A DNA stretch of 64,000 nucleotides from Pseudactinotalea terrae (GCF_009733845.1 NZ_WNXZ01000003.1:124001-188000); one strand, 5' to 3'; positions 2,856 through 26,313 are shown, counted from the stretch's first letter. The notes: generated by a model from the letters alone, not told the origin. Numbers and translations are program-made.

Positions 2856-4721
2856 ATGCCTGAGTCCCAGGAGTACGTCGATCCCGCCCAGCTGCGTGTC
2901 GCCGCCAGGCGCGGCGGCAAGTCGGTCGGGAGGCTCACCGAGCTGATCCGGCAGAGCGTGCGGCTGGTGTGGGCATCCGGGCGCGGACTGTTCGTGGCGC
3001 TCCTGGCCCTGCAGGTGGTGGCGGCGCTCGCGTTGGCCGGTCAGGTGCTCGCGATCAAGTCCGTGCTGGATGCGTTGCTGATCGTCGGTGCGGGTGGGGC
3101 AGCGACGGCGCAGCTGTGGATCCCCGTGCTCGTGCTGGCAGCGCTGACCGCGGCGACCTCCATCGTGACCGCGGTCCAAGGGCACCTGCAGCGGTTGCTG
3201 GGCGAACGGGTGGCCCGGGCGATGTGGGGCAGGGTCCTCGACGTCGCCACAGCGGTCAACCTGCGGCACTTCGAGTCCGCCGACTTCTTCAACCGACTGC
3301 AGCGGGTGCAGGCCAACGCGCTGTCGCGGCCCTACCAGGTGACGCAGGGTCTGATCGCGATGGGTGGTGCCCTCGCCGCGAGCATCGGTGTGGGCGCGGC
3401 GCTGGTGAGCATCAGCCCGTTGTTGCTGCCGCTGCTGGTCGTCGGTGGCCTCCCGGTCCTGCTGACCAGCCGTCGTGAGAGCAAGCTCGAGTTCGACTTC
3501 TCGATCTCGCAGACGCCGCTGCTGCGGATGAGGCAGTACCTGACGCTGCTGCAGACGGGGCGTGACGAGGCCAAGGAGGTCCGCGCCTTCGGACTGTCGA
3601 GATGGCTGCGTGGCCGGTTCGACTCCTCGTACGAGGAGTACCTGACCAACCTGACGGCCCATGTCCGCAGGCGTTCGATCCTGTCCGTGATCGGCAACCT
3701 GGGCACCTCGGTGGTTCTGGTCGTGACGCTCGGCACGCTGGTCTGGCTCATCGTCGGCGGACAGGTGAGCGTCGCGGGCGCGGGCGCAGCGATCGTTGCC
3801 ATCCGGATGCTCGCTACCCAGGTGCAAGCCCTGTTCGCAGGCGTGCAGCGCATCTTCGAGTCGGGTCTGTTCCTCGACGACCTGCGCGCGTTCCTCGAGC
3901 ACGGCGAATTCGCGGCGCGTGAGGACGAGGGCCCGGAGTCACCGCCAGGCTTCGAGACGTTGCACGCCGAAGGCGTGTCCTTCAGCTATCCGGGATCGAC
4001 AGAGCCGGCGGTGAAGGATGTCGACATCACGATCAGGACCGGCGAGGTGGTGGCGATCGTCGGGGAGAACGGCTCGGGAAAGACCACGCTGGCCAAGCTG
4101 CTCGCGAGGCTGTACGAGCCCGATGAAGGCGCCATTCGCTGGGATGGCGTCGACGTGCGTCGGTGGAGCACGTCCTCGGTGCGGTCCAGGATCGCGGTGA
4201 TCTTCCAGGACTTCGTGCGGTACGCCTTCAGCGCCAGCGACAACCTGGCGATCGGCGACGTCACCCGACCTGCGGATCCGGCCCGGGTGCGTGAGGCGGC
4301 CCGGGCGGCCGGCGCGGATCGCGCGATCGAGAACCTTCCCGATGGCTACGCGACGCCCTTGTCGAGGATCTTCTCGGGGGGTCGAGACCTCTCGGGTGGG
4401 CAGTGGCAGCGGGTAGCGATCGCGCGTGGCTACTACCGAGACGCGCCACTGGTCATCCTCGACGAGCCCTCGGCTGCTCTCGATCCGCGTGCTGAGCACG
4501 ACCTGTTCGCCAGCCTGCGGGAGACGTTGCAGGGCCGGACCGTGCTGTTCATCTCGCACCGGTTCTCGACCGTGCGGTCGGCAGACCGCATCTACGTGAT
4601 GGACGGCGGTGCCGTCGCCGAGCACGGTTCGCACGACGAGCTCATGGCCAAGCAAGGCATCTACGCCGAGCTCTTCCAGCTCCAGGCGGCCGCCTACCTG
4701 TCCGCCGAGGAGACCGGCTAA
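2856..4721 (+). CDS. ABC exporter, fused permease and ATPase
   Basis: This 621-residue half-transporter would work as a dimer in the cytoplasmic membrane. Residues 1 to about 340 form the transmembrane domain. The ATPase follows, with Walker A GENGSGKTT near residue 403, the ABC signature LSGGQWQR near 511, Walker B LVILDEPSAALD near 531 and the H-loop in ISHRFSTV. Substrate is unknown: a lipid-linked glycan is suggested by its position after the priming transferase, while export of the lasso peptide encoded 12 kb away is possible because that cluster has no transporter of its own. The gene is convergent with the O-antigen-ligase-like gene, with only six bases between stops. Confidence 0.9.
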   Translation: MPESQEYVDPAQLRVAARRGGKSVGRLTELIRQSVRLVWASGRGLFVALLALQVVAALALAGQVLAIKSVLDALLIVGAGGAATAQLWIPVLVLAALTAATSIVTAVQGHLQRLLGERVARAMWGRVLDVATAVNLRHFESADFFNRLQRVQANALSRPYQVTQGLIAMGGALAASIGVGAALVSISPLLLPLLVVGGLPVLLTSRRESKLEFDFSISQTPLLRMRQYLTLLQTGRDEAKEVRAFGLSRWLRGRFDSSYEEYLTNLTAHVRRRSILSVIGNLGTSVVLVVTLGTLVWLIVGGQVSVAGAGAAIVAIRMLATQVQALFAGVQRIFESGLFLDDLRAFLEHGEFAAREDEGPESPPGFETLHAEGVSFSYPGSTEPAVKDVDITIRTGEVVAIVGENGSGKTTLAKLLARLYEPDEGAIRWDGVDVRRWSTSSVRSRIAVIFQDFVRYAFSASDNLAIGDVTRPADPARVREAARAAGADRAIENLPDGYATPLSRIFSGGRDLSGGQWQRVAIARGYYRDAPLVILDEPSAALDPRAEHDLFASLRETLQGRTVLFISHRFSTVRSADRIYVMDGGAVAEHGSHDELMAKQGIYAELFQLQAAAYLSAEETG

Positions 4722-4727
4722 GTACAG

Positions 4728-6314
4728 CTAGGCGCCGGTATCGGTCTCGGCGGCGCTTCTAGCTCGCCGGCCGTAGTTGCGGGGAGTCGTGCTCACCCAT
4801 GCGTCGCGCAGGCGGGCGCGGAGATTGGCCATCAGCGGCGTCGTCACGAACTTGTCACCGGGCGCGGAGACCTGGATCGGGGTGTGCACGCTGGTGCCGT
4901 CGAGCCGCCAGAGCGCCCCGATGGCACCGACGAGGATGCACATCACGCCGACGAACGTCGCGAACGCGAAGGAGTCGAAGGTGCCGCTCGCGAGCACGGC
5001 AGCTGGCATCGTGACGGCGAGCGCGTGGCCCAGGTGGCGTGTCTCCTGGTCCTTGCCGCGCAGCCGCACGCTGCGGGCGACCAAGTACGGCACCAGGAAG
5101 AACAACAGCAGACCGATGACTCCGGCCACGCCGCCCGCGATCAGCGTCACATAGATCTGGTTGTCGAGCAGGAGGAACTCCTCGGGTGTGACCATCCCTG
5201 CGCCCCATCCCAACCAGGGCCTCTGGCTCCACAGCTCGAGCACGGTACCGGTCCGAGCGATCCGGTCCGTCACACTGCTGTCGTTCTCGGCATTCGTGAA
5301 CAGCGAACGGATGGTCCCGAGGACGCCGCGATTGATGACGTGGAAGACCAGGATCGAGACGATACTGATCACCAGGGCGTTGTAGCGCTGGCGCCATGGC
5401 CAGACGATCGCCATCATCGCCATGGTGACGAAGACCGTCAAGATCGCCGATCGCGAGATGGACAGCGGGATTCCGGTGGCGATGAGTGCAACGCCGATCC
5501 AGCGCCAGACGCGGACGCGACCGCGTGGAGCGAACAGTGCGTAGTGCATCGCGATCGGCAGCACAAGAGCCAGCACCACACCGAACTCGATGAAGTGGTT
5601 CGCGGTGGACGCCACCCGCGGGAAGCCTCCGCTGCCGCGTTCGGATATGCCTATGAGCTCGCTGTTGCGGCTCAGACCTGGAATGTTGATGTACTGGGTC
5701 ACGTCGACGATTCCGGTGAACTGCAGAACGCCGATGATCGCCATGATCGCCGTGAAGAAGACCAGCAGACCGAGGGTGCGGTCGAGCTCAGCGCGAGTCC
5801 GGATCCCATCCGCGACGAACAGGAGGACTCCCGCAATCGCCAGCGTGAAGATGAGCCAGCGATCTGCTGAACTCGCCTGCTCAGGCGACGGAAGCCGGTC
5901 GTACCCCACTGCGTAGCCGAGCAGCTGGAGGCCGACGAAGATCCCGACGACCCAGTGGATCGGTTGCCTGCCAGCAGGCAGCTGCTTCCGCCTGATCGCC
6001 GACACGAACCACAGAAAGAGCAGCATCAGCCCGACGGCCACGGACGGGCGGCCAACCGCCCCCATGCCACCGATGACGAGCCGTGCGGGTATGAGGAACT
6101 GCAAGGCGAGGAACAGCGCGAGAAGCCCGACACCGGTCAGGGTCCACTTGTGCACGAGTACCGGGGCCCACTCGTCGAGGGCTCGGCGTAGGGCCTGCGG
6201 GGCCCGCAGGAGCGCTGGTTCCCAACCATCTGTTCCAGGTGCGGGTCTCACCCGGGCCGGCGCGACTTCCGCGGGGTCCTGCACGATGTGCGGTCGGGTC
6301 GCGGAGGAGGTCAA
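4728..6314 (-). CDS. O-antigen ligase/polymerase-like membrane protein
   Basis: The protein has 528 residues with roughly twelve hydrophobic segments and a large extracytoplasmic loop in the second half, the layout of the O-antigen ligase / Wzy polymerase superfamily. The LWSQRPWLGWGAGMV segment resembles the conserved G-x-G-x-G region of that family. The likely role is polymerising or ligating polysaccharide repeat units on the outer face of the membrane. Its start overlaps the stop of the Wzz-like gene (ATGA at 6311-6314), so the two are co-transcribed and probably act together. Ligase and polymerase cannot be separated from sequence alone. Confidence 0.82.
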   Translation of the reverse strand: MTSSATRPHIVQDPAEVAPARVRPAPGTDGWEPALLRAPQALRRALDEWAPVLVHKWTLTGVGLLALFLALQFLIPARLVIGGMGAVGRPSVAVGLMLLFLWFVSAIRRKQLPAGRQPIHWVVGIFVGLQLLGYAVGYDRLPSPEQASSADRWLIFTLAIAGVLLFVADGIRTRAELDRTLGLLVFFTAIMAIIGVLQFTGIVDVTQYINIPGLSRNSELIGISERGSGGFPRVASTANHFIEFGVVLALVLPIAMHYALFAPRGRVRVWRWIGVALIATGIPLSISRSAILTVFVTMAMMAIVWPWRQRYNALVISIVSILVFHVINRGVLGTIRSLFTNAENDSSVTDRIARTGTVLELWSQRPWLGWGAGMVTPEEFLLLDNQIYVTLIAGGVAGVIGLLLFFLVPYLVARSVRLRGKDQETRHLGHALAVTMPAAVLASGTFDSFAFATFVGVMCILVGAIGALWRLDGTSVHTPIQVSAPGDKFVTTPLMANLRARLRDAWVSTTPRNYGRRARSAAETDTGA

Positions 6315-12442: not shown

Positions 12443-13948
12443 TCAGCGAACCGGTTCGCCGTCGTCGTACCAGACGTTCGTCGAGTCCCAGACGCTGACT
12501 CCCATGTTCCCGGCGACCCCATAGCGGAAATCACGACCGAAGACATTGCCGCTGTAGCGGGCGCTGTCGACCTCGCCGCGGCCCCCGCCGTTGATGGTGT
12601 AGTTGCCGCCGTTCATGAGGTTGCCGGTCACCAAGAGGTTCGAGATCTGGTCGCTTCCCTGCAACGAGCCGATCTGGATCGCGGCGTTCATCGGGTCATC
12701 GGTGGACGCAACGTACGCCTGCAGGTTGTTCCCATGGAGCGTGATGTTGTCACCACTACGGATCTGAATGGAGTCATGATGACCGCCCGAGACTCGGTGC
12801 AGGTCGTGGATGTAGGAGTACTCGATCGTCACGTTGCTCGCCTGGATACGGATGCCATCCTCAGCAGAGTGGATGTCGGCATAGCGCACGGTCGCACCTC
12901 CGCTGCCTCCGTCGAAGAAGATGCCGATCCCGGTGCTGTTCTCGTTGTCGATCTCGACGTGCTCGATCAAAGTGTTCGTTGAACCGCCCTCGACCCGGAT
13001 CGGGTAGCCGTCGCCACCGCCCTGGACGAGAGTGTTGCGAATCGTGACGTCGTTGGCGGCAACAACGATGGTTCCGTCGACGTGGAGGCCGTCGATCACC
13101 GTCCCGTCCTCGGTGATCCGAATGTCGTCTGAGGGACGCAGGGTCACCCCCGCCGGTACGCCGGTGTTGTCAGCGTTCGGGAATCCACTGGGAGCAGGAA
13201 CAGGATCCGGTCCCGGCGCGGGCTCAGTGGGCTCGGCGGGCTCAGTGGGCTCGGGCTCCGGGGTGGGCTCGGGCTCAGGCGTGGGCTCAGGCTCCGGGGT
13301 GGGCTCGGGCTCGGGGGCGGGCTCCGGCCTGGCGTTGAGTCCACCGTCGTGACGCTGGCTGAACGGCTGACCGTCAACCCAGGAATTGATGACGGTCGCT
13401 GGATGCCTCTGCGAGGACATGAAGCCGTTCCGGCAGCCGAACAGCGACACGTTGTCGGCGCTGTAGTCGCCGAACACGATGCCGTTCGTCCGCGTCTTCA
13501 AGCAGTAGATGCTCGAGTCGAGGACCTGGGTGCCGTCGGCCCCAGGGTGGACCCGGATGCTGTGGTAGCCGCGGTAGGCCACGACGGTGTTCACGATCGT
13601 CACGTCGTCAGCGTGGACGCTGATCGATCCCTGGACATACAGGCCGTCGATGACGGTCCCGGGCTCGGTGATCACGAGGTTGCCGTCGTGCACCTCGAGG
13701 CCGGCCACGTCCGCGGCAGTGGGGCCGTCGATGTCGGACCCCTCTCGCTCGAAGCTGGCGACCGCGGCCACCTCGGTCGCCGCCGGGTTCGCCTTCGCCT
13801 CGTTCGGGCGGGCGCTCGCGGCTGTCATCGAGCCGATCAGCGCGAGCGTCAGACCCACGGCGAGCGAGGGCAGCGTGCGGCGATGGCGTCGAGAGCCGGT
13901 CGGCTGGCGCCGCCGGGCGACGTCGGGTTTGCTGTGTGCGGTATCCAC
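12443..13948 (-). CDS. Secreted right-handed beta-helix protein with two domains and a Pro-Glu linker
   Basis: The 501-residue protein has a GTG start at 13948 preceded by AAGGAG ten bases away. An Arg-rich n-region and a hydrophobic stretch (LAVGLTLALIGSMTAASA) form a signal peptide. Two parallel beta-helix domains follow, each opening with the same module (ITEPGTVIDGLYVQGSISV and ITEDGTVIDGLHVDGTIVV), separated by a PEPxPEPEPTPEPEP linker. The second domain has many N/D/G-rich rungs with I/V spacing. Such proteins are extracellular polysaccharide lyases, hydrolases or epimerases, or glycan-binding proteins. Catalytic residues are not assigned. The glycan-locus setting suggests the exopolysaccharide as substrate. 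Confidence 0.83.
   Translation of the reverse strand: MDTAHSKPDVARRRQPTGSRRHRRTLPSLAVGLTLALIGSMTAASARPNEAKANPAATEVAAVASFEREGSDIDGPTAADVAGLEVHDGNLVITEPGTVIDGLYVQGSISVHADDVTIVNTVVAYRGYHSIRVHPGADGTQVLDSSIYCLKTRTNGIVFGDYSADNVSLFGCRNGFMSSQRHPATVINSWVDGQPFSQRHDGGLNARPEPAPEPEPTPEPEPTPEPEPTPEPEPTEPAEPTEPAPGPDPVPAPSGFPNADNTGVPAGVTLRPSDDIRITEDGTVIDGLHVDGTIVVAANDVTIRNTLVQGGGDGYPIRVEGGSTNTLIEHVEIDNENSTGIGIFFDGGSGGATVRYADIHSAEDGIRIQASNVTIEYSYIHDLHRVSGGHHDSIQIRSGDNITLHGNNLQAYVASTDDPMNAAIQIGSLQGSDQISNLLVTGNLMNGGNYTINGGGRGEVDSARYSGNVFGRDFRYGVAGNMGVSVWDSTNVWYDDGEPVR
13192..13327 (-). repeat. Pro-Glu-rich tandem repeat inside the beta-helix gene
   Basis: A tandem GAGCCCGAGCCCACC-like array encodes the repeating PEPEPT linker between the two beta-helix domains. 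Copy number of such arrays often varies between strains and affects linker length only. Confidence 0.85.
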
Positions 13949-14486
13949 TACGGGGGAGCTCCTTGGCCTCGTGAGCGGATCGCTGTCGGTTGCGATCTGC
14001 CTCGGATGGTCTCCGCGGTGCCTGCTCTGACAAGATCGGTCTTGACAGGGCGATGGTGGCACGCGGACTCGGGTCCCCCGACCCCGGATGCACTGTCTCG
14101 GGTTCTTGATCGGCAGTGCATCCGACACCTCAGACGGTACGCCAGACACATGTTCGGGTGTGTCCGACGGGTGCCGTTTGACAACGAAACGATAACAGTC
14201 TGCCTCGGTGCGGTCGCAGGGCTGCTGAGCGTTCCAGTCCGAAGTGAGCTGAAGTGGTACGAAGCGCACACCACCGCGAAGGCCGTGCAGGCGCGATCTG
14301 TGGGGTGATTCATCGTCGACGAGGAAGCGATGGGGGCGTGGCGAGTCGGATATGGGAACTGTGCTGGCCCGGACCTGCCACAGTGTCCGAAGCGGCGACG
14401 ACGTCGCCGGCGGCACGCACGGGGCCGACCCGACGACAGACCGCGCCGCGTAGGGGGACCGGAATGCGAAGCCACTGGAGCAAGCC
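13949..14486. promoter_or_regulatory. Long divergent intergenic region with inverted repeats
   Basis: This 538-base region lies between the divergent beta-helix and nucleotidyltransferase genes. It contains a perfect 11-base inverted repeat (14085-14095 with 14114-14124, spacer 18), and the GACACA/TGTGTC pair near 14144-14163. A shorter CAAGA/TCTTG dyad is near 14029-14043. No protein-coding frame is convincing. It probably holds both promoters and operator sites; I recognise no known riboswitch. Confidence 0.4.
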
Positions 14487-15617
14487 TTGAGAGCCGAAAC
14501 GAAGCGTCGTGGTGACGACTGGGCGTCGAGGCAGTTGGTCGCCATCTGCCAAGGTGCCGAGCCCGAGCCTCCTGCGGATCTGGACTCCACCAAGGATCTC
14601 ATTCGAGCGGTGCGTCACCATCGCATCGCACCGTTGGCGCACGTCGCCTACCGCGAGGTGTGTCCACCGCTTGCGGCGGAACTGCGCGTCGACCGTGACG
14701 ATGCCATCGGCACCCACCTGCGTGCCTCGATCGTGCTGGAGCAGATTCGAGCGCTGCTCGGCGATACTCCTTGGGTGACCTTCAAGGGTGCGGTGCTGTC
14801 GGAGACGGCGCACCCCCGACCCGGGTTGCGCACCTACCACGACGTCGATGTGCTGGTCTCGCCCCAGGACCTCCGCGAGGTGTGCAGCGTTCTCCTGGGC
14901 CACAAGTGGCAGATCGCCGACTACGACGACATGCTCCGCAATCCCGAGACGCCCGGTGAGATGCACTGGATCAGCCCAGCCGGGCTGCTCGTGGACCTGC
15001 ACTGGTCGATGACCAACACGGCGGTGCGTCGCGCCCGCCTCTCGGTCGCTACGGACGACATCCTCGCGCGGCGACGCGAGGTCTCGATCGGCCTCAGCCG
15101 CACCTGGACACTCGACGAGGTCGACTCACTGGTGCACGTAGGCCTCCACGCGACGCTGACCGGCGCCAATCGGCTGCTGCTGCTGCTCGACACGGATCGC
15201 GTCGCACGCAACATCGCGGATTGGGGTCCGGTCGCGCAACGGGCCATGGAATGGCAGGCCGAGCCCCATCTCTCGCTGGTGCTCAGCCGCGCGCAGCGGA
15301 TCTTCGACACGCCGTTGCCACCGACCCTCGATACCGAGCTAGGCGTTTCCGCGACCTTCAGTCGGCTCTGTGCGGTCGTCGACAACCTGGCGCCGGTTCC
15401 TGCGGCCAGGCGGGACCAGGGCGTCGCGCGCATGTTCGCTCGTGCTGTGCGCCGCGGTGCCCGACGGACCGCTGCGTCGGTCACCCGAAGCGCGGCGATC
15501 GGAGTGGCCGAGCGGGTTGTCCGTCCGAAGCGGCATCGCGCGCAGGAGCGGACGAGGGCACACGCTGAGGCGCTAGCGCTCTATCTCGACGCTGTCGAGT
15601 CTGCGGGCAGGACCTGA
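14487..15617 (+). CDS. Nucleotidyltransferase-family protein (PF14907 type) of the lasso-peptide cluster
   Basis: The 376-residue protein carries the family motifs HHRIAPLAHVAY, VTFKGAVLSE and GLRTYHDVDVLV (G-R-x-x-x-D-x-D) near residues 95-127. The probable start is TTG 14487, with GGAG seven bases upstream. It is convergent with the lasso operon and its 3' end overlaps the kinase gene by 37 bases. In Bacillus pseudomycoides the lasso-cluster nucleotidyltransferase PsmN is linked to adding a hexose to the phosphorylated peptide; a similar tailoring role here is an inference from the combination with the kinase. Confidence 0.75.
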   Translation: MRAETKRRGDDWASRQLVAICQGAEPEPPADLDSTKDLIRAVRHHRIAPLAHVAYREVCPPLAAELRVDRDDAIGTHLRASIVLEQIRALLGDTPWVTFKGAVLSETAHPRPGLRTYHDVDVLVSPQDLREVCSVLLGHKWQIADYDDMLRNPETPGEMHWISPAGLLVDLHWSMTNTAVRRARLSVATDDILARRREVSIGLSRTWTLDEVDSLVHVGLHATLTGANRLLLLLDTDRVARNIADWGPVAQRAMEWQAEPHLSLVLSRAQRIFDTPLPPTLDTELGVSATFSRLCAVVDNLAPVPAARRDQGVARMFARAVRRGARRTAASVTRSAAIGVAERVVRPKRHRAQERTRAHAEALALYLDAVESAGRT

Positions 15618-16543
15618 GTCAACGAGATCTCCCGGCGGATGCGCTCGGCGAGTCCCTCCGGAAAGGGCGGCCCCCAGGGCATCCGTGCCAGATAGACCGG
15701 CACGGACTCGACAACCCGGGAGAGCTCTCCGAGCTGGCGGTCGAGCACGGTCGCGTCTTCCCAACCGGCGATCCGTGGGAACTGCAGCAAGTAGAGAAAC
15801 GCCTTCTTCGCCGAGAGTCGGATGATCTCGGGTTCCCGCTCGCCGTCGTCGTGGTCGGGGAACGGGATCACGATCGCTCCGAGCGGTAGGCCATCCCGTG
15901 TCGCCTGCTCCATCCGGAGGGCGTCTCGGCTGTCGCCCGTCACTCGACTCTCCGGCGCCTGCCCGAACTGTCCTGCCAGCTCGGCCGCCGCCTTGCGGAG
16001 CCGGAGCTCCGTCGCCCCGAGATGGCACAACGGCGTGCCGCCGTCGAGGTCGACTCGCAGCACGTCATCGGTGATGAGCCGTGCGCCGTCGGCGCACATC
16101 AATGTGGCCATCGTGGACTTGCCCATACCGGATCGGCCGATGAACGCCAGAGCGACATCGCCGAGCTGGACGGCACTCCCGTGAAGCACAGCGTGGCCCC
16201 GCATGATCATGAGAAAGGAGAGCGTCGTGCCGATGGCCAGCACGGCGACCCGGTCGAGGGAGGTGCCCGGCAGTGGGTGCGCGACGATGGTCGTCAGACC
16301 CGCATCGATCTCGAAGTCGCACGTGCCGTGGAACCGCAGCAGGTAGCCGTCGGGGTGCTCGGTGGCTGTGAAGTGCTGCCGATCGGTGGCGACGTGCAGC
16401 AGACGGCGACCGGGCAGCTCGGTCTCGACCGGTGAAGCATCCGCACCGATGCAGATCCTCACGTCGATCTCGCCCTCGGGGGGTCTCTGCTCGAAGATCG
16501 CCAGGTCTGACTCCACGTTCAGGCCGTACAGACGAGTGCGCAT
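15581..16543 (-). CDS. HPr-kinase-like peptide kinase (lasso tailoring)
   Basis: The 320-residue protein has an HPrK-type P-loop GRSGMGKST at residues 136-144, preceded by HAVLHGSAV, and the conserved acidic pair in LITDDVLRVD (D159, D160). Its ATG overlaps the B2 stop (TGATG), with a GAGGAGG site in the B2 end. Homologues in paeninodin-type clusters phosphorylate the side chain of the C-terminal serine of the lasso precursor. The precursor here does end in Ser, which supports that function. The N-terminal about 115 residues are a PadeK-like extension absent from true HPr kinase. No HPr/PTS genes are nearby. Confidence 0.82.
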   Translation of the reverse strand: MRTRLYGLNVESDLAIFEQRPPEGEIDVRICIGADASPVETELPGRRLLHVATDRQHFTATEHPDGYLLRFHGTCDFEIDAGLTTIVAHPLPGTSLDRVAVLAIGTTLSFLMIMRGHAVLHGSAVQLGDVALAFIGRSGMGKSTMATLMCADGARLITDDVLRVDLDGGTPLCHLGATELRLRKAAAELAGQFGQAPESRVTGDSRDALRMEQATRDGLPLGAIVIPFPDHDDGEREPEIIRLSAKKAFLYLLQFPRIAGWEDATVLDRQLGELSRVVESVPVYLARMPWGPPFPEGLAERIRREISLTQVLPADSTASR

Positions 16544-16998
16544 CAGGAGGTCCTCCTCGTCGAGACCGGGGTCAGCCGCGTGTACGAGCTCGCGGCACCC
16601 AACGGGTCGAGAATTCCACCGTCGATCTCCAGCCACGCGTGCGCGCGTAGCTTCCCGTCGAGCTTGGCGACGCCGACCACGAGTGAGGGTGAACGGTGCC
16701 TGATCAGCGCACCGCTGACCAGGGCCTGGCGAAGGCACGTATCCCCGAACGGCCAGTGCCTCATGACTCGTCGGGCTGCGCGCACCCGCCGGCGGTCCTG
16801 CGGCGCCAATCCGGTCGGGATGGTGACAGCCGCGGCCGTGGTCTCGTCATCGGACTGCAGTGGCGTGCCGAGGCGGCGAGACAGACGCGGGAGACCAACC
16901 GTGCGCAGGCCGACCTCGGTGAAGCAGGCCAGGCCGAGCGCGACGCCGATCCAGCCCCACTCGTCCACCGGCGGGATCGTGCGCGGGAGCTTGCTCAC
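16543..16998 (-). CDS. Lasso peptide B2 leader peptidase (transglutaminase-like)
   Basis: The 151-residue protein starts at GTG 16998, overlapping the cyclase stop by four bases (GTGA). The C-terminal half is the B2 cysteine-protease domain: C88 in GDTCLRQALVSGALIR, H120 in RAHAWLE and D131 in GGILDPLG form the expected Cys-His-Asp triad. Its job is to cut the leader from the precursor while the RRE protein B1 presents it. Length is typical of free-standing B2 proteins. A longer frame upstream is antisense-like and was discarded. Confidence 0.88.
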   Translation of the reverse strand: MSKLPRTIPPVDEWGWIGVALGLACFTEVGLRTVGLPRLSRRLGTPLQSDDETTAAAVTIPTGLAPQDRRRVRAARRVMRHWPFGDTCLRQALVSGALIRHRSPSLVVGVAKLDGKLRAHAWLEIDGGILDPLGAASSYTRLTPVSTRRTS

Positions 16999-18167
16999 GA
17001 GGAGGCCTCCGCGTTGTTCTGAGTGCCGAGCCACGCCGAGTGCAGGAGCATCGCGGCACTCATGGTGGGGGTGTCGGAGAGCCACTGCGATCGGAGTGCT
17101 ACCACGTCGACGAGGCTGGTGTCGACGCCGGTACCGTCCCACTCCCGCGCGAACGCCTGCGTGTAGCGACCCGAGTAGGCACGGTTGAACGCGCCCTTGG
17201 AGCCCCGTGTCAGCACCGAGGGGGGCAAGACATCCGCGAAGAGAGCCTTCATGACCGACGTCCGCCCGTTGTAGCCCCAGAATCCCCCTGCGCGAGCGAG
17301 CGCTGCGAGGAAGTCCGGATGGATCAGGGGGTTGATCGCCCTCACGTCATAGTCGCTCGCGACGATCCGCTGGTTGATGTCCATCGTGTGCCACACGCGC
17401 TTGCGCCCGACCCAGGCAATCGCGTCGGAGAACCGCAGCGGCTCGGTGGCTTCTGCTGCAGCCAGCATTCTTGAGTGACGGTTGGCGGCGTCGGGCAACA
17501 GCCACGACTGGAGCTCGGCCACGGGCAACTCGTGGCGCACCGCGGCGGCTCGCAGAGGTCGGGGTAGCAGCGCATCGCAGGCGCGCCGAAGGAGGGCGAG
17601 CGTCGGCGTTCGACGACGCCTGAGCAGCGTCAGCGGCGTGACGCGACGCGCCCCAAGAACCTCATCGCCGCCTTCACCCGTGAGCATGGAGCCGCCCCGC
17701 ATGTGCTGGTAGACCACGCCGTGGCTGTGCAGTGCGGGGGGAAACAGGACGCCGTGGCGCCGAATGCTGGCCTGTGCCGTCGGTCCGAGAAGATCGGTCT
17801 CGTCGTCGGTGAGGTCGAGCCGGATCCAGTCGCGCAGCCCCAGGTGACTGACGACGAGCTCTTGCCACTCGTTCTCGTCGGTGTCCGGGATGTGGGGATA
17901 GCGCCGGGTCACCGGGACCGGGTCTGCCAAGCCCTCGGCACGTGCGAGGGCAGTCGCTGCGGCCAGCACCGCCGACGAGTCACGACCGCCAGAGAAGGTG
18001 ACGTAGCAGGGGCCGTCGAGGAGCGCGGGTCGGATGACTCCGGCCAGTGCCTCGCGCGGCGACGTCGTCGTCGGCGCCCGCCGCTGATCGGGGACGAACC
18101 CGTGGGCCCAGCACGTCGCGACCTCGAAAGGGTCCGAACGCACGATCGCGTCCGCCAGCTGTGTCAT
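16995..18167 (-). CDS. Lasso peptide macrolactam synthetase (asparagine-synthetase-like), single domain
   Basis: The 390-residue protein has an ATP-pyrophosphatase loop SGGRDSSA at residues 59-66, then GEGGDEVLGARR and a C-terminal synthetase half. It should adenylate an Asp/Glu side chain of the core peptide and close it on the new N-terminal Gly. Usual lasso C proteins are near 600 residues with an N-terminal glutaminase-like domain. Here only about 55 residues precede the PP-loop, and the frame upstream of 18167 runs antisense through the precursor, so that domain is really absent. ATG 18167 has GGGGAA upstream. It overlaps B2. Confidence 0.85.
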   Translation of the reverse strand: MTQLADAIVRSDPFEVATCWAHGFVPDQRRAPTTTSPREALAGVIRPALLDGPCYVTFSGGRDSSAVLAAATALARAEGLADPVPVTRRYPHIPDTDENEWQELVVSHLGLRDWIRLDLTDDETDLLGPTAQASIRRHGVLFPPALHSHGVVYQHMRGGSMLTGEGGDEVLGARRVTPLTLLRRRRTPTLALLRRACDALLPRPLRAAAVRHELPVAELQSWLLPDAANRHSRMLAAAEATEPLRFSDAIAWVGRKRVWHTMDINQRIVASDYDVRAINPLIHPDFLAALARAGGFWGYNGRTSVMKALFADVLPPSVLTRGSKGAFNRAYSGRYTQAFAREWDGTGVDTSLVDVVALRSQWLSDTPTMSAAMLLHSAWLGTQNNAEASS

Positions 18168-18200
18168 GTCAAGATTCCCCGAACTTGTGCTAGAACGCAC

Positions 18201-18241
18201 TCGTGGGGGTTCATCGAACAACGTTCGATGAACCCCCACGA
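18201..18241 (-). terminator. Perfect 19-bp hairpin between precursor and cyclase genes
   Basis: Arms 18201-18219 and 18223-18241 are perfectly complementary with a three-base loop, starting 11 bases after the precursor stop. It is an intra-operon attenuator: partial termination or 3'-end protection would give more precursor mRNA than enzyme mRNA, as is common in RiPP operons. No long U-run follows on the minus strand. Confidence 0.8.
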
Positions 18242-18252
18242 TGTGCCTGACG

Positions 18253-18375
18253 TCACGACTCGATCGTGCCGTAGCGGATGAAGTAGAGCAGAGTGTCGTC
18301 GTTGCCCGCCCAGCCTTCGCCGAGCGTGAGGTCGCGGACCGAACCAACCTCGGTCATCGTGGGAGCCTCATACAT
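18253..18375 (-). CDS. Lasso peptide precursor, 40 residues
   Basis: The start ATG 18375 has a strong Shine-Dalgarno (AGGAGGTGA). The leader MYEAPTMTEVGSVRDLTL fits the RRE-recognised pattern YxxPx(L/M)xxxGxxxxxTx, with Y2, P5, M7, G11 and the penultimate T17. Cleavage after L18 gives a 22-residue core beginning GEGWAGNDD and ending RYGTIES. G1 can close on D8 (eight-residue ring) or D9 (nine). There is no Cys, so class II. The C-terminal Ser is the residue phosphorylated in paeninodin-type peptides. Hand-calculated monoisotopic mass of the macrolactam is about 2458.1. It sits between B1 and the cyclase. Confidence 0.9.
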   Translation of the reverse strand: MYEAPTMTEVGSVRDLTLGEGWAGNDDTLLYFIRYGTIES

Positions 18376-18450
18376 AAGTGTTCACCTCCTCTTGACGGTT
18401 GCAGTGTGCACCGGCATGTACCGGAATACGGGCGCCGTGCTGGCTCGTCA

Positions 18451-18711
18451 TCACTGACCGACCAGCAGGCCGCGTGCGGAGAGATCGTCGAGAAAGGCCG
18501 CTACGTCACGCTGGGCGGTCGCGCTGTCGACCTCGAAAGTCGTCGCGAGAGCTCGTGCGAGGTCGTCTGGAGTCCGCTCCTCGACCAGCAGCTTGAGCAT
18601 GGCAGTCCCGGTGGCATTCGTCGTGAGGTACTTCGACGTCTTCAGGTCGAGCACAACCATCTCGCCGTCGATCTCCCGCCAAGAGACCTCACTCTGACGC
18701 AGCTTCACCAT
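18451..18711 (-). CDS. Lasso peptide B1 protein, PqqD-like RiPP recognition element
   Basis: The 86-residue protein MVKLRQSEVSWREIDGEMVV onward is a stand-alone PqqD-like RRE. It has a three-stranded N-terminal sheet (VVLDLKTSKYLTTNATG), then helices with LARALATTFEVDSATAQRDV and FLDDLSARGLLV. The domain binds the precursor leader and delivers it to B2. It lies upstream of the precursor, the reverse of the frequent A-C-B1-B2 order. A CACTAT hexamer on the minus strand at 18758-18763 could be its -10 element. The longer upstream frame lacks family character. Confidence 0.88.
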   Translation of the reverse strand: MVKLRQSEVSWREIDGEMVVLDLKTSKYLTTNATGTAMLKLLVEERTPDDLARALATTFEVDSATAQRDVAAFLDDLSARGLLVGQ

Positions 18712-18830
18712 GTCTAGCCCCCGAACTCTGTTGTTCTCGGCCGGTGCCGATGCGGCAATAGTGTCGGCAGCGGTAGGGCGCTGGTCGGGCGCGCAAGGGT
18801 GATCGCGGGGTGCGCACCCGGGGTGTTCGG

Positions 18831-18849
18831 CCTCACCCCAAGGGTGAGG
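18831..18849 (-). terminator. Short hairpin downstream of the glycosyltransferase gene
   Basis: CCTCACCC (18831-18838) and GGGTGAGG (18842-18849) pair around a three-base loop, ten bases after the GT2 stop. It probably separates the GT2 transcript from the lasso operon. No T-run is visible. Confidence 0.55.
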
Positions 18850-18858
18850 TCCCACCGG

Positions 18859-19689
18859 TCATGAGCGACTGCTCTCGTCCCGGTGCCAGCGAGTGTCGCC
18901 ACGGCGCACGGCGGCGGCCGCGCCTACGCGTGCGAGCACCCCCGTGATCGCGAAGACGAGCACGCCGGGCAGGAGCCTGGGCGATCGCCCCGCGAGCCTG
19001 ATGAGGAAGCCGAGCGAGGCGCCGGAGCCCCGCAGCTGCGGCCGGTCGGACGAGGAGGCGAGCCGTGCGTTGCCCGTGGCGGCACGGACCCGACGGCGCA
19101 GCAGGTCGCGGTAGGTCTTCGGAGGACGGATCACCGCGGCCGTGCCCTCCACCACGACCCGTTCCTGCGGTGCGAAGCTCATCGCGATCAGGAGGTCGTC
19201 GGACATCACGTCGCGCCACCCTCGCAGCCGCTCGTGGCCGACCTCGTCGACGCAGATCACGCCGCGACCGTAGAGCTCGTCGCGGACCCCGGGCAGCTGC
19301 TGCCAGATCCGGTAGTAGAGGCGCACGAGCGTGGCGACGCCGGTCATCGGGAAGGACCGTCGTGGCCCGGCAGCGTGGACCTCGGCGCCCAGCGCGCCGG
19401 CCAGCCGGACGACGTCGTCGTAGGTGATCACGACATCGCCGTCGACGTACAGGCGAGGGAACCCCGAGATCGACCGGTCGCCGAGCGCCAGCGCCTGGAT
19501 CTTGGACGGGACGGGCGTCTCGATCACGTGTACATCGTGGCTGCGGGCGATGGCAGCGGTGCCGTCGGTACACCCGTTGGCGACGACGACGACCTCGAGC
19601 GCCTCGCTGTCGACTGGTGCTTGCAGGGCAGCAAGAAGACGTGGGAGGCCGTTCTCCTCGTTGTGCGCTGGGACGACGACGCCTATCAC
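18859..19689 (-). CDS. Glycosyltransferase family 2
   Basis: The 276-residue protein has a GTG start at 19689. GT-A motifs are IGVVVPAHNEENGLPRLL, VVVVANGCTDGT and LYVDGDVVI, the last carrying the metal-binding acidic residues. The C-terminus has a hydrophobic, possibly membrane-associated segment (LLPGVLVFAITGVLARVGAAAAV). It lies 147 bases upstream of the lasso B1 gene behind a hairpin. It more likely belongs to the glycan locus than to peptide tailoring, although a role in glycosylating the lasso peptide cannot be excluded. Confidence 0.83.
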   Translation of the reverse strand: MIGVVVPAHNEENGLPRLLAALQAPVDSEALEVVVVANGCTDGTAAIARSHDVHVIETPVPSKIQALALGDRSISGFPRLYVDGDVVITYDDVVRLAGALGAEVHAAGPRRSFPMTGVATLVRLYYRIWQQLPGVRDELYGRGVICVDEVGHERLRGWRDVMSDDLLIAMSFAPQERVVVEGTAAVIRPPKTYRDLLRRRVRAATGNARLASSSDRPQLRGSGASLGFLIRLAGRSPRLLPGVLVFAITGVLARVGAAAAVRRGDTRWHRDESSRS

Positions 19690-19941
19690 CGTCTCAGTAT
19701 CGGGGGTCCGGGTCAGGCGCCGCTACGCGGGGTCGCGCACACAGCCCGCGCCTCACCCTGACTCACCCCAGCGTGGTTCTGACACCACCCTCGCGTCACC
19801 AGTGACCCAGGATGGGCGCGCTCTTATCTTTGAGGTGGCCAGTCGGGAACCAAGGGGAGCCACGTGAGCAACGCAATGACGTCGCGGGCAGATCTGCCTG
19901 CGGGTGCGCGCGAGCAGTCTGCCGCGGCGCACAGGCGGATG
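19690..19941. other. Intergenic region with a promoter-like site and a possible gene remnant
   Basis: Between the GT2 start and the ACP stop lies a plus-strand TATCTT at about 19827-19832. It is followed by AAGGGGAG and a GTG at 19864 (VSNAMTSRADLPAG), which looks like a real promoter and start. However, after about 25 codons the frame runs antisense through the ACP gene. It may be the 5' stub of a lost gene. A GTCAC/GTGAC dyad is at 19795-19806. Confidence 0.3.
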
Positions 19942-20202
19942 TCAGGCCGCTGCGGAACGCTTCCGCACCACGAACTGCGTCAGGTTCTCGATGCTGTCCA
20001 GATTCGCCGGAACGGTCTCGTCGTCAGCGACCTTCACATCCAGATCGGTCTCGAGGAAGTCCACCAGCTCAAGCACCCCGGTCGAGTCGACGACTCCGGC
20101 GGCGAGCAGCGAGTCGGCGTCGTCGGGCAGTCGCGCAGAATCGCCGAAGAGGAAGTTCCGCACCACGAATTCCCGAACCTGGTTCCGAACCTGGTCTTCC
20201 AT
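19942..20202 (-). CDS. Acyl carrier protein
   Basis: This is an 86-residue carrier protein, counted from ATG 20202, which has GAGCGAGGG just upstream; an in-frame start nine codons earlier is possible. The phosphopantetheine site is Ser40 in AAGVVDSTGVLELVDFLE, and the acidic helix II/III region (LDVKVADDE) is typical. It is divergent from an acyl-AMP ligase and close to an additional holo-ACP synthase, so it is probably a pathway-specific carrier loaded by that ligase, not the fatty-acid-synthesis ACP. Confidence 0.88.
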   Translation of the reverse strand: MEDQVRNQVREFVVRNFLFGDSARLPDDADSLLAAGVVDSTGVLELVDFLETDLDVKVADDETVPANLDSIENLTQFVVRKRSAAA

Positions 20203-20309
20203 GTCGCCCTCGCTCAAGGTCACGTGCATCTCGGTGATGCGGCGTCACCATACAGGCGCCGTGATAGCGGCCGCAAAGCCGACAACCCTTCCGCCGAGAA
20301 AGGGACGCC

Positions 20310-21854
20310 ATGCCGTCGACAGATATGAGTACGGCGGAGTTTCTGCTCGCTGAAGGACGACCCGACGATATCGCTGTCATCGATCGGACAGGGCACCACA
20401 GCTACGCAGAGCTTCGCGACCAGGTGGCGCTGCTCTCGCACGATATCGGTGAGTGGGGTCTCGAGCCCGGATCGCGGATCGGACTGCTCAGCAGGAACTC
20501 CCTCTTCTGGGCGGCGGCCTACCTCGCCATTCTGGGCTCGGGCCACGTCGCGGTCCCGTTCGCCACCGGTCTGACACCCCAGGATGTCGCGAGCAAGGCG
20601 GCGTTCGTCGGTTGCGACTCCTTCCTCGTGGACCGTGCCCTGACCCGGCGATTCGAGCCGGCGCTCGCGCACGCCCGTCAGGTGCGTGACGACGCGGTGC
20701 AGGTCTCCCCGCAAGATGCACGCCCCTGGCGGCCCGCGGCCGTCGATCCCGATGCCGATGCGGTGCTCGTCTTCACGTCGGGGACCACCTCGGCGCCGCG
20801 TGCCGTTCGCGTGACCCATCGCAACATCCAGGCCAACACCGACTCGATCATCAGCTACCTCGACCTGCGTCGAGACGACCGCATGCTCGTGGTGCTGCCC
20901 TTCTCGTACTGCTTCGGCGCCTCGCTGCTGCACACGCACCTGCGGGTCGGTGCCAGCGTCTCGCTCAGCGACAGCCTGGCCTATCCCGAGACCGTGATCG
21001 AGGCGATCGACCGGGATGCGTGCACGGGGTTCGCGGGCGTGCCTTCTTCGTATCAGCTGCTGCTGAGGGCGAGCTCCTTTGCCTCCAGGGCGCTGCCGTC
21101 CCTCAGGCACCTGCAGCAGGCAGGCGGCCGGCTGCCGCAGCCCCAGATCGACCAGATCGTAGCCGCTCAGCCTCACGCGCGGCTCTTCGTGATGTACGGG
21201 CAGACCGAGGCCACGGCCAGGCTGTCCTACCTCCCGCCTGAGCTGCTGCGCGAGCGGCAGGGATCGATCGGGAAGGGGGTGCCGGGGGTGACGCTCGGGG
21301 TGCTGGATGCTGACGGGGTCGAGGTGGACGCGGGCGTGGTCGGTCAGATCGTCGCCAGCGGTGCCAGCATTGCCAAGGGGTACTGGGACGATCCTCAGGG
21401 CACCAGCGAGAAGTTCGTCGCCGGCACCCTGCGGACCGGCGACCTGGGTCGTGTCGACGAGGACGGATTCATCTACGTCGTCGACCGCCAGGACGACTTC
21501 ATCAAGTCGTGGGGCTTCCGCATCTCGAGCCACGAGATCGAAGACGCGGTGCTCGAGCTCAGCGGTGTCGCGGCCGCGGCTGTCGTCGGTCGCCCTGACG
21601 ATGAAGCGGGGGAGGCGATCGTGGCCTACTACACCGTGAAGGACGGCGAGGTCGTCACAGCTGTCGATGTCCTCACCCACTGCCGATCGACGCTGGCGCG
21701 GCACCAGGTCCCGCATGAGGCTCACGAGGTGGCGGAGCTGCCGACCAATCAGAACGGCAAGGTCGTCAAGTCCACCCTTCGTCAGTGGGCCGCGCGAGGC
21801 GTGAACCAGGCTGCAGACCCCGAGAAAGAGGAGACACTATGCGCACCCGGCTGA
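20310..21854 (+). CDS. AMP-dependent acyl/aminoacyl synthetase (ligase)
   Basis: This 514-residue member of the acyl-CoA synthetase/adenylation superfamily has the core motifs FTSGTTSAPRAVRVTH (A3), YGQTEATARLSYLPPE (A5), TGDLGRVDEDGFIYVVDRQD (A7/A8) and NQNGKVVKSTLRQW with the late catalytic Lys (A10). It should adenylate a carboxylic acid and pass it to CoA or, given the divergent neighbour, to the ACP. In glycan loci such ligases supply acyl or aminoacyl groups for sugar amidation. The substrate is not readable. Its 3' end overlaps the next gene by 16 bases. Confidence 0.9.
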   Translation: MPSTDMSTAEFLLAEGRPDDIAVIDRTGHHSYAELRDQVALLSHDIGEWGLEPGSRIGLLSRNSLFWAAAYLAILGSGHVAVPFATGLTPQDVASKAAFVGCDSFLVDRALTRRFEPALAHARQVRDDAVQVSPQDARPWRPAAVDPDADAVLVFTSGTTSAPRAVRVTHRNIQANTDSIISYLDLRRDDRMLVVLPFSYCFGASLLHTHLRVGASVSLSDSLAYPETVIEAIDRDACTGFAGVPSSYQLLLRASSFASRALPSLRHLQQAGGRLPQPQIDQIVAAQPHARLFVMYGQTEATARLSYLPPELLRERQGSIGKGVPGVTLGVLDADGVEVDAGVVGQIVASGASIAKGYWDDPQGTSEKFVAGTLRTGDLGRVDEDGFIYVVDRQDDFIKSWGFRISSHEIEDAVLELSGVAAAAVVGRPDDEAGEAIVAYYTVKDGEVVTAVDVLTHCRSTLARHQVPHEAHEVAELPTNQNGKVVKSTLRQWAARGVNQAADPEKEETLCAPG

Positions 21855-24807: not shown

Positions 24808-26313
24808 ATGGGATCTCCACAGTCAACGCCGATCAGTGGGATTGCGTACCGCCGCCAGTTCGTCATGGGTCCCGAGGCCCCCGACCTGCTGGCGGAGTGG
24901 TCGCACGAGAGCGTGACGGCGGGTCTGACGCTGTCGGTGCACCCGGATCTCCCCTCCGCGCGGGTCGACGCGGCTGGCCGCAGCATCGTGCTGCTCGGGT
25001 ACGTCCTGGACCCTCGGCACCCGGCGCGCGACGACGCGACCATCCTGGCGGACCTGTTGCGCACCACCACGACCTACGAGGACGTGCTGCGCGCATTCGA
25101 CGAGCTCGCGGGGCGATGGGTCGCGTGCTATCTCCAGGGCGAGCAGGTCCGCGTGTTCCACGACGCTGCCGGGCTGCGCCAGGTCTACTACGGACACGAC
25201 GACGACGGCGCCCTCTGGTGCGGTTCCCGCCCTGAGCTGTTGGCCCGGCTGCTGGGCCGCCCGGAGGATGTCGAGACGCGCAGGGATCTCACCCGTGACG
25301 GCGTGCTGAGCGAGCACCTCAACCACTTCTGGCCGGGGTCCGGCTCCGCCTTCGTCGGGATCCACCGGCTGCTGCCCAATCATGACCTCGAGGTCATGAC
25401 GGGGCAGGTGCGCAGGTACTGGCCGGTGGCGCCGATCGAGCACAGGGAGCCAGAGGCGGCGTCGGCGCGCGCGGTGACGACGTTGCAGGGGGTGATCTCA
25501 GCGGCAGCCGCTCGATACCCCCTCGCGCTCGCCGTGACTGCCGGTTTCGACTCGCGCGTGCTGCTCGCCGCGTCACGCGAGCACGTCCAACGAATGACGT
25601 TCTACACGTTCAAGAAGCCTGGGATGACGACGTTCAGCCCGGATATCCAAGTGCCGCGGCACATGCTCAAGAAGCTCGGTCTCACGCACAAGGTCATTCA
25701 TGTCCGGCACCGAGCACCCGGACCTGTGGCTGCAACGATCGCCGCGACCTTCACTCCAGCGCACCAGAAGACAGCAGACCAGGCGGCTGCGCTCGACGCC
25801 GATCCGCCGAGGGATCGGCCATGGGTCACGCTCAACGGCAACGTCGCCGAGACGGTGCGGGCGGTGATCCCGCGCAGGGAGCCCACCCGCGAGAACCTCG
25901 CCCTGATCTTCACGATGCAGCGGAGCGAGTACGCCGCCGCGACGTTCGAGCGCTGGTACGACGAGGCCAGGTCCGCGATCGCCGTCTCGGGCATCAACCT
26001 GTGGGACTTCTTCTACTGGGAGCAGCGTCTCAGCGCGTGGCTGGCGACGGTCCGGACCGAGTTCGACGTGGTGGAGGAAGGCGTGACCCCCTACAACTCG
26101 CGGGCGCTGCTCGAGTGCCTGATGGGGGTGGACGAAGGCTTGCGCTGCCCCCCGGACTACACGTTCTTCGGCGGTCTGGTCGGGCGGATGTGGCCGCAGC
26201 TGCTGGATTTCCCCGTCAACCCGCCGGATCGGGTCGCCCACGGCAGGCGGAAGGTACGCTCCACGGTGGCATCGCTGGCGCGCCCGGTCGTCTCGTCGCT
26301 CCGGCGTCGCTGA
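24808..26313 (+). CDS. Asparagine-synthetase-like protein with altered PP-loop
   Basis: The 501-residue protein is shaped like AsnB: an N-terminal glutaminase-like half without a start-proximal catalytic Cys (it begins MGSPQSTP, not MCG), then a synthetase half. The usual SGGxDS loop reads LAVTAGFDSRVLLAA near residue 243, so the two glycines are altered while Asp-Ser is kept. Without the Cys it cannot use glutamine by the standard route. Such proteins occur in actinobacterial glycan loci, where their reaction is not established. It is convergent with the NadE-like gene, with 15 bases between stops. Confidence 0.75.
   Translation: MGSPQSTPISGIAYRRQFVMGPEAPDLLAEWSHESVTAGLTLSVHPDLPSARVDAAGRSIVLLGYVLDPRHPARDDATILADLLRTTTTYEDVLRAFDELAGRWVACYLQGEQVRVFHDAAGLRQVYYGHDDDGALWCGSRPELLARLLGRPEDVETRRDLTRDGVLSEHLNHFWPGSGSAFVGIHRLLPNHDLEVMTGQVRRYWPVAPIEHREPEAASARAVTTLQGVISAAAARYPLALAVTAGFDSRVLLAASREHVQRMTFYTFKKPGMTTFSPDIQVPRHMLKKLGLTHKVIHVRHRAPGPVAATIAATFTPAHQKTADQAAALDADPPRDRPWVTLNGNVAETVRAVIPRREPTRENLALIFTMQRSEYAAATFERWYDEARSAIAVSGINLWDFFYWEQRLSAWLATVRTEFDVVEEGVTPYNSRALLECLMGVDEGLRCPPDYTFFGGLVGRMWPQLLDFPVNPPDRVAHGRRKVRSTVASLARPVVSSLRRR

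Follow-up and report, generated by a model that had tools for sequence, protein, structure and literature searches.

A lasso peptide gene cluster with a short cyclase and a probable C-terminal peptide kinase in Pseudactinotalea terrae and related actinobacteria

We describe a lasso peptide gene cluster in a 64,000-nt stretch of Pseudactinotalea terrae DNA (the window; coordinates are counted from its first letter). The cluster comprises a RiPP (ribosomally synthesized and post-translationally modified peptide) recognition element (RRE) gene B1, a precursor gene A, a cyclase gene C, a leader peptidase gene B2, an HPr-kinase-like gene K and a convergent nucleotidyltransferase gene N (Table 1). 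Its identity as a lasso cluster is confirmed, and we hold it highly probable, from sequence comparison, that this functional-looking actinobacterial gene set encodes a lasso peptide phosphorylated at its C-terminus, made by the pathway proposed below. Clusters for phosphorylated lasso peptides are already a known kind; what appears to be new here is a lineage of short cyclases and a linkage to polysaccharide genes in a second phylum. An earlier, sequence-only reading of this DNA had named the cluster and placed B1, A, C, B2 and K on the minus strand facing the nucleotidyltransferase gene, and every one of these positions held. Its description of overlapping starts applies to C/B2 (4 bp) and B2/K (1 bp), but not to B1–A and A–C, which are separated by gaps of 75 and 85 bp; the 3' ends of N and K overlap by 37 bp. 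The short cyclase, the hairpin between A and C, the displaced exporter and the link to polysaccharide genes, all described below, had escaped that reading.

The identity of the cluster is carried by profile searches, in which the leader, B2, RRE, Asn_synthase and NTP_transf_5 models all scored above their cut-offs. The precursor leader reaches 34.2 bits against NF033521, the curated lasso-leader model (cut-off 19), so that a current annotation pipeline could call this short gene. B2 scores 61.7 bits against NF033537 (cut-off 33) and 55.4 bits against PF13471, N scores 121.8 bits against PF14907 (NTP_transf_5; cut-off 31.2), and C scores 48.1 bits against PF00733 (Asn_synthase; cut-off 21). B1 passes PF05402 (PqqD) with 67.6 bits over a cut-off of 23.4, but its 62 bits against NF033530 (lasso_PqqD) fall under the cut-off of 70. 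The families that had been assigned to B1, C and B2 therefore stand for PF05402, PF00733 and NF033537, but not for NF033530 or, as weighed below, for the lasso-specific cyclase models.

The same genes travel together in other genomes. Orthologues of the precursor, B1, C, B2, K and the nucleotidyltransferase occur jointly in seven more genomes from this family, and orthologous sets are also present in Occultella (O. glacieicola, O. gossypii and O. aeris), Tessaracoccus, Nocardioides, Propionicimonas, Jiangella, Phytoactinopolyspora, Isoptericola and Microbacterium, so that neighbour conservation spans at least eight actinobacterial genera. Because the orthologues recur as sets both within the family and in distant actinobacterial records, the cluster is not a chance assembly. 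Most relatives keep the order B1-A-C-B2-K, while three family genomes are rearranged, with B1-B2-K facing C-A-N; the B1-A-C-B2 order, which had been read as a departure from the common A-C-B1-B2, is indeed present, but it is the usual order within this lineage. Three Jiangella loci (L023, L025 and L026) carry two tandem precursors with differing cores, both ending in serine. The cyclase is single-copy in its own genome, and a search of PLSDB plasmids with it gave no match.

The precursor combines a leader carrying YxxP and Thr(−2) with a core carrying Gly1, Asp9 and a C-terminal Ser22. In a comparison set of 22 precursors, the YxxP motif and the threonine at −2 are present in all 22, and the RRE-binding leader pattern stands as originally described. 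A C-terminal serine is found in 21 (the window precursor ends IES), and a small residue at core position 1 is mostly conserved. The sequence-only reading had offered Asp8 and Asp9 alike as acceptors for Gly1; both residues are there, and the sequence is compatible with a threaded macrolactam linking residue 1 to an Asp/Glu side chain at about position 7–9. An acid occupies position 9 in 19 of the 22 precursors and position 8 in 7, and in Jiangella Asp9 is the sole acid among positions 7–9. This distribution favours Asp9, which would probably be the ring acceptor of the window precursor and give a nine-residue ring. The mass anticipated for the macrolactam, about 2458.1 Da, agrees with our computed value of 2458.144 Da. 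Between the window precursor and that of O. glacieicola, 15 codons differ synonymously against 6 with a replacement, and 19 of the 25 base changes fall at third positions; as judged from these codons, purifying selection acts on the precursor.

Lasso kinases share a His-Lys-Asp-Asp motif, and PadeK, ThcoK, SyanK and PsmK phosphorylate a C-terminal serine (PMC9266682, PMC8498205). The window kinase carries these four catalytic residues together with the glycines, in the motif H121-G136-G139-G141-K142-S143-D159-D160, and stands beside a serine-ended precursor, as in the PadeK/ThcoK/PsmK type. The motif is invariant in eight orthologues and is identical in residues and spacing (H–K 21, K–D 17) to that of BsfK, H148-G163-G166-G168-K169-S170-D186-D187 (PMC10368454). 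Since the lasso-kinase motif is kept at identical spacing and nearly all precursors end in serine, the product is probably phosphorylated at its C-terminus, with a predicted mass of about 2538.11 Da (computed with the added phosphate as 2538.110 Da). In pseudomycoidin, addition of a hexose to the phosphate of the C-terminal serine requires PsmN (PMC9266682, PMC8498205), and by analogy the phosphorylated product may possibly be glycosylated in the same way. The AlphaFold model of N (predicted local distance difference test score, pLDDT, 77) matches nucleotidyltransferase folds in Foldseek. The family-2 glycosyltransferase (GT2) gene upstream of B1 has an orthologue, 59–61% identical, at the same place in all four Occultella-type genomes.

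The cyclase sets this lineage apart. Its alignment to beta-lactam synthetase starts at residue 218 of the latter, and hence the N-terminal amidotransferase-like domain is missing, while the PP-loop and the synthetase core are conserved. A longer start that would add a 200-residue N-terminal domain is excluded by the precursor stop and by O. glacieicola, where the reading frame is closed by a stop codon four codons before the chosen start, so that the protein cannot exceed 392 residues. Among 40 lasso B2 loci sampled from the class, a cyclase matching the window family well is present in 16. These cyclases are short, with open frames of about 380–440 residues in most cases, and a strong kinase match accompanies them in 14 of these loci. 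Two loci (L088 and L031) have a longer cyclase frame with an uncertain start. Conventional cyclases in the same sample measure about 566–712 residues, have the PP-loop after residue about 220–320 and mostly lack a kinase; several loci gave no recognisable cyclase. At L072, strong kinase and nucleotidyltransferase matches stand beside a conventional-length cyclase, so the association of short cyclase and kinase is not absolute. Judged by alignment and open frames, cyclases throughout the lineage lack the N-terminal amidotransferase-like domain, and we found no description of such a lasso cyclase in the open-licence literature. For C, AlphaFold gave a model of poor quality (pLDDT 64), used for fold confirmation only; Foldseek matches it best to an amidotransferase, to beta-lactam synthetase and to asparagine synthetase. 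Elsewhere in the window, a 501-residue protein at 24808–26313 without a Pfam match scores 39 bits against the albusnodin/ikarugamycin macrolactam cyclase model (cut-off 300).

Directly after the precursor stop lies a perfect inverted repeat without a T-run (Table 1). Stems are possible in the A–C interval of all 17 relatives examined, with differing sequence, although that of Microbacterium is barely above shuffled sequences. Rfam contains no known RNA family matching within 14000–20000, and the hairpin is therefore not a catalogued element; it is probably mRNA-stabilising or attenuating, keeping precursor mRNA above enzyme mRNA. The operon itself contains no transporter gene. An ATP-binding cassette (ABC) exporter encoded elsewhere in the window resembles exporters that adjoin K or N in Tessaracoccus, Nocardioides, Isoptericola, Microbacterium and other clusters, and among the 24 family genomes it is found in the 9 that also have N; eight of those showed the cyclase, and the remaining one is a fragmented draft. 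This exporter is probably the lasso transporter D, displaced by about 10 kb from the operon. A second ABC transporter (29502–31319) was rejected for this role, as it is not the one found beside other clusters.

Table 1. Features of the lasso peptide cluster and of linked genes in the P. terrae window
Feature	Coordinates	Strand	Remarks
B1, PqqD-type RRE	18451..18711	-	86 aa; PF05402; orthologues 55-62% identical
A, lasso precursor, 40 aa, MYEAPTMTEVGSVRDLTL / GEGWAGNDDTLLYFIRYGTIES	18253..18375	-	NF033521; 84% identical in Occultella
Perfect inverted repeat, 19-20 bp stem	18201..18241	-	fold -43.5 kcal/mol, z = -9.8
C, lasso cyclase, synthetase domain only, 390 aa	16995..18167	-	PF00733; PP-loop SGGRDSS = residues 59-65
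B2, transglutaminase-like leader peptidase, 151 aa	16543..16998	-	Cys88, His120; GTG start; NF033537, PF13471
K, HPr-kinase-like peptide kinase, 320 aa	15581..16543	-	PF07475 below cut-off; motif residues present
N, NTP_transf_5 nucleotidyltransferase-like protein	14487..15617	+	Asp119, Asp121; PF14907; neighbouring orthologues 47-55% identical
GT2, candidate accessory gene adjoining B1 on its upstream side	18859..19689	-	PF00535
ABC exporter, probable displaced lasso transporter D	2856..4721	+	52-68% identical to cluster-adjacent exporters
Wzy_C (O-antigen ligase/polymerase-like) membrane protein	4728..6314	-	PF04932, 37.9 bits (cut-off 31.7)

Gene content, motifs and conservation, like the short cyclase, the hairpin and the co-inheritance, are direct observations. 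Taken as a pathway, these genes suggest the following enzymatic steps, whose order, like the ring size, the modification and the export, we infer from sequence. The RRE protein B1 would bind the leader through YxxP, and K would phosphorylate the C-terminal serine of the linear precursor. B2 would then cleave after the Thr-Leu with which the leader ends. The short cyclase would activate Asp9 and join it to the amine of Gly1 around the tail, yielding a 22-residue lasso with a nine-residue ring. N, like PsmN in pseudomycoidin, would probably modify the phosphate, perhaps with help from GT2, and the displaced ABC exporter would probably secrete the product.

Several observations weigh against this pathway. 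C stays far under the curated lasso/macrolactam cyclase cut-offs (33.9 against 300 and 10.2 against 525 bits; the models, NF033561 and NF033535, have 561 and 668 positions), and the open-licence literature yielded no characterised example of a short cyclase. K scores under the HPr-kinase family cut-offs (26.3 against 33.3 bits for PF07475, 27.5 against 200 for TIGR04352). The Microbacterium precursor ends in Ser-Arg, and in several Jiangellaceae records the surroundings of the cluster showed no nucleotidyltransferase, so that this enzyme is not essential everywhere. In three family relatives with the rearranged layout (G002, G020 and G021), position 9 is non-acidic and D7 and D10 are present instead; the ring size is thus not universal, and those relatives may differ. 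Three loci in which B1-B2-K faces C-A-N (L013, L014 and L015) have cores of the form GGxNLQDWSDE, non-acidic at position 9.

One alternative is a phosphorylated peptide that is unthreaded or uncyclised, the short C doing something other than lasso ring closure. C has no amidotransferase-like domain of the kind that the sampled conventional cyclases have, and Bacilli encode linear polyphosphorylated peptides with an RRE, a kinase and an NTP transferase but no cyclase (PMC13381572). We nevertheless consider this unlikely: the PP-loop and synthetase core are conserved, the B2 and lasso-leader models score above their cut-offs, and most precursors keep a small residue at position 1 and an acid at position 9, as macrolactam formation would lead one to expect. 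Slightly less probable still is an ordinary unmodified lasso of 2458.14 Da, with K and N inactive or acting elsewhere, for instance on the linked polysaccharide. The sub-threshold kinase scores would fit it, as would the position of N on the opposite strand and its not being found near the Jiangella and Phytoactinopolyspora clusters, yet K is translationally coupled to B2 with all catalytic residues at the known spacing, and both its occurrence with the short cyclase in the class-level loci and the near-constant serine end speak for a modified product. That the cluster is decayed or silent we judge very improbable; its distribution is patchy even within the genus, with two congeners lacking it, but all frames are intact, the active-site residues are kept and the precursor has diverged from Occultella mostly by synonymous changes. 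A cluster for a cyclised, C-terminally phosphorylated lasso peptide thus accounts best for the gene set.

Comparison with known systems places the cluster among several relatives without equating it to any. Pseudomycoidin (Bacillus pseudomycoides psm) likewise combines lasso genes with an HPr-like kinase and a nucleotidyltransferase and modifies the C-terminal serine (PMC9266682, PMC8498205), whereas the present cluster belongs to Actinomycetota and has another gene order and a displaced exporter; its cyclase without an N-terminal domain is listed as a further difference, the length of the psm cyclase lying outside the comparison. Paeninodin (Paenibacillus dendritiformis pade) has an HPr-like kinase with the conserved His-Lys-Asp-Asp residues that acts on the C-terminal serine of its precursor (PMC9266682), but its family is described as having a WxxP leader and being restricted to Bacillota (PMC13381572). 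With YxxP rather than WxxP in every precursor compared, the actinomycetotal cluster is not paeninodin in the strict sense of that paper. The Bsf cluster of Bradymonas sediminis shares A, B1, B2, C, a kinase (BsfK) with the same residue spacing and BsfN (PMC10368454); it differs in that the target of BsfK is core Ser3, and in having Ile(−2) in the leader and Asp as the last core residue, where the present cluster has Thr(−2) and a C-terminal serine. Standard actinobacterial lasso clusters share the RRE, leader peptidase and Asn-synthetase-like cyclase, and differ from the window cluster in the cyclase length, PP-loop position and scarcity of kinases given above for the class-level sample.

The window as a whole is a polysaccharide locus with a sugar transferase, Wzy_C, a pyruvyl transferase and glycosyltransferases. 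It also contains a protein with a PEPEPTPEPEP proline-glutamate repeat and no informative Pfam match (12443–13900) and a divergent pair of an acyl-carrier protein and an AMP ligase that resembles exosortase-system acyl-CoA ligase (19942–21854); the ligase (20310–21854) occurs in only 3 of the 24 family genomes. The Wzy_C gene is found in the same 9 family genomes as N and the exporter. A generic polysaccharide linkage was rejected, as the sugar transferase at 1205–2725 is present in 20 of the 24 and so follows no such pattern. Across 247 genomes of the class, the short cyclase occurs in 18, a Wzy_C match of at least 285 bits in 15 and both in 14 (Fisher p about 2e-18; by genus, both in 7 and the cyclase only in 1, p about 4e-10), p-values that overstate the case because the threshold was set after the list was seen and related genomes are not independent. 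Both genes share a contig in 10 of the 14 genomes, 5–62 kb apart (nine within about 26 kb), and lie on different contigs of draft genomes in the remaining 4. Tessaracoccus and the two Nocardioides give no more than weak Wzy_C matches, and there are none in Isoptericola and Microbacterium.

Wzy_C is therefore a genetically linked polysaccharide gene outside the core cluster, and physical linkage with joint gain and loss does not prove joint function. Like the window cluster, paeninodin-type clusters often lie inside capsular polysaccharide loci, in Bacilli, with a role that a 2026 paper gives as unknown (PMC13381572). Our leading guess is that the role of the cluster is tied to the linked cell-surface polysaccharide. 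A more specific idea, which we put forward as speculative and rather unlikely, is that the phosphorylated lasso is a component of a cell-surface polysaccharide system rather than a free antibiotic: K and N would build a phosphate-sugar handle on the C-terminal serine, GT2 and Wzy_C would extend this handle or attach it to the polysaccharide, and a distinct lineage of cyclases needing no amidotransferase-like domain would close the ring.

Whereas reviews describe lasso kinases acting on a C-terminal serine in Firmicutes and Proteobacteria, the clusters reported here form a coherent lineage across Actinomycetota. If the assignment is true, the window protein would represent a naturally occurring minimal lasso cyclase, of value to structural studies and to engineering. 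The tight linkage to a Wzy_C lineage parallels the capsule loci of Bacilli in an unrelated phylum, and offers a testable direction for the role of phosphorylated lasso peptides.

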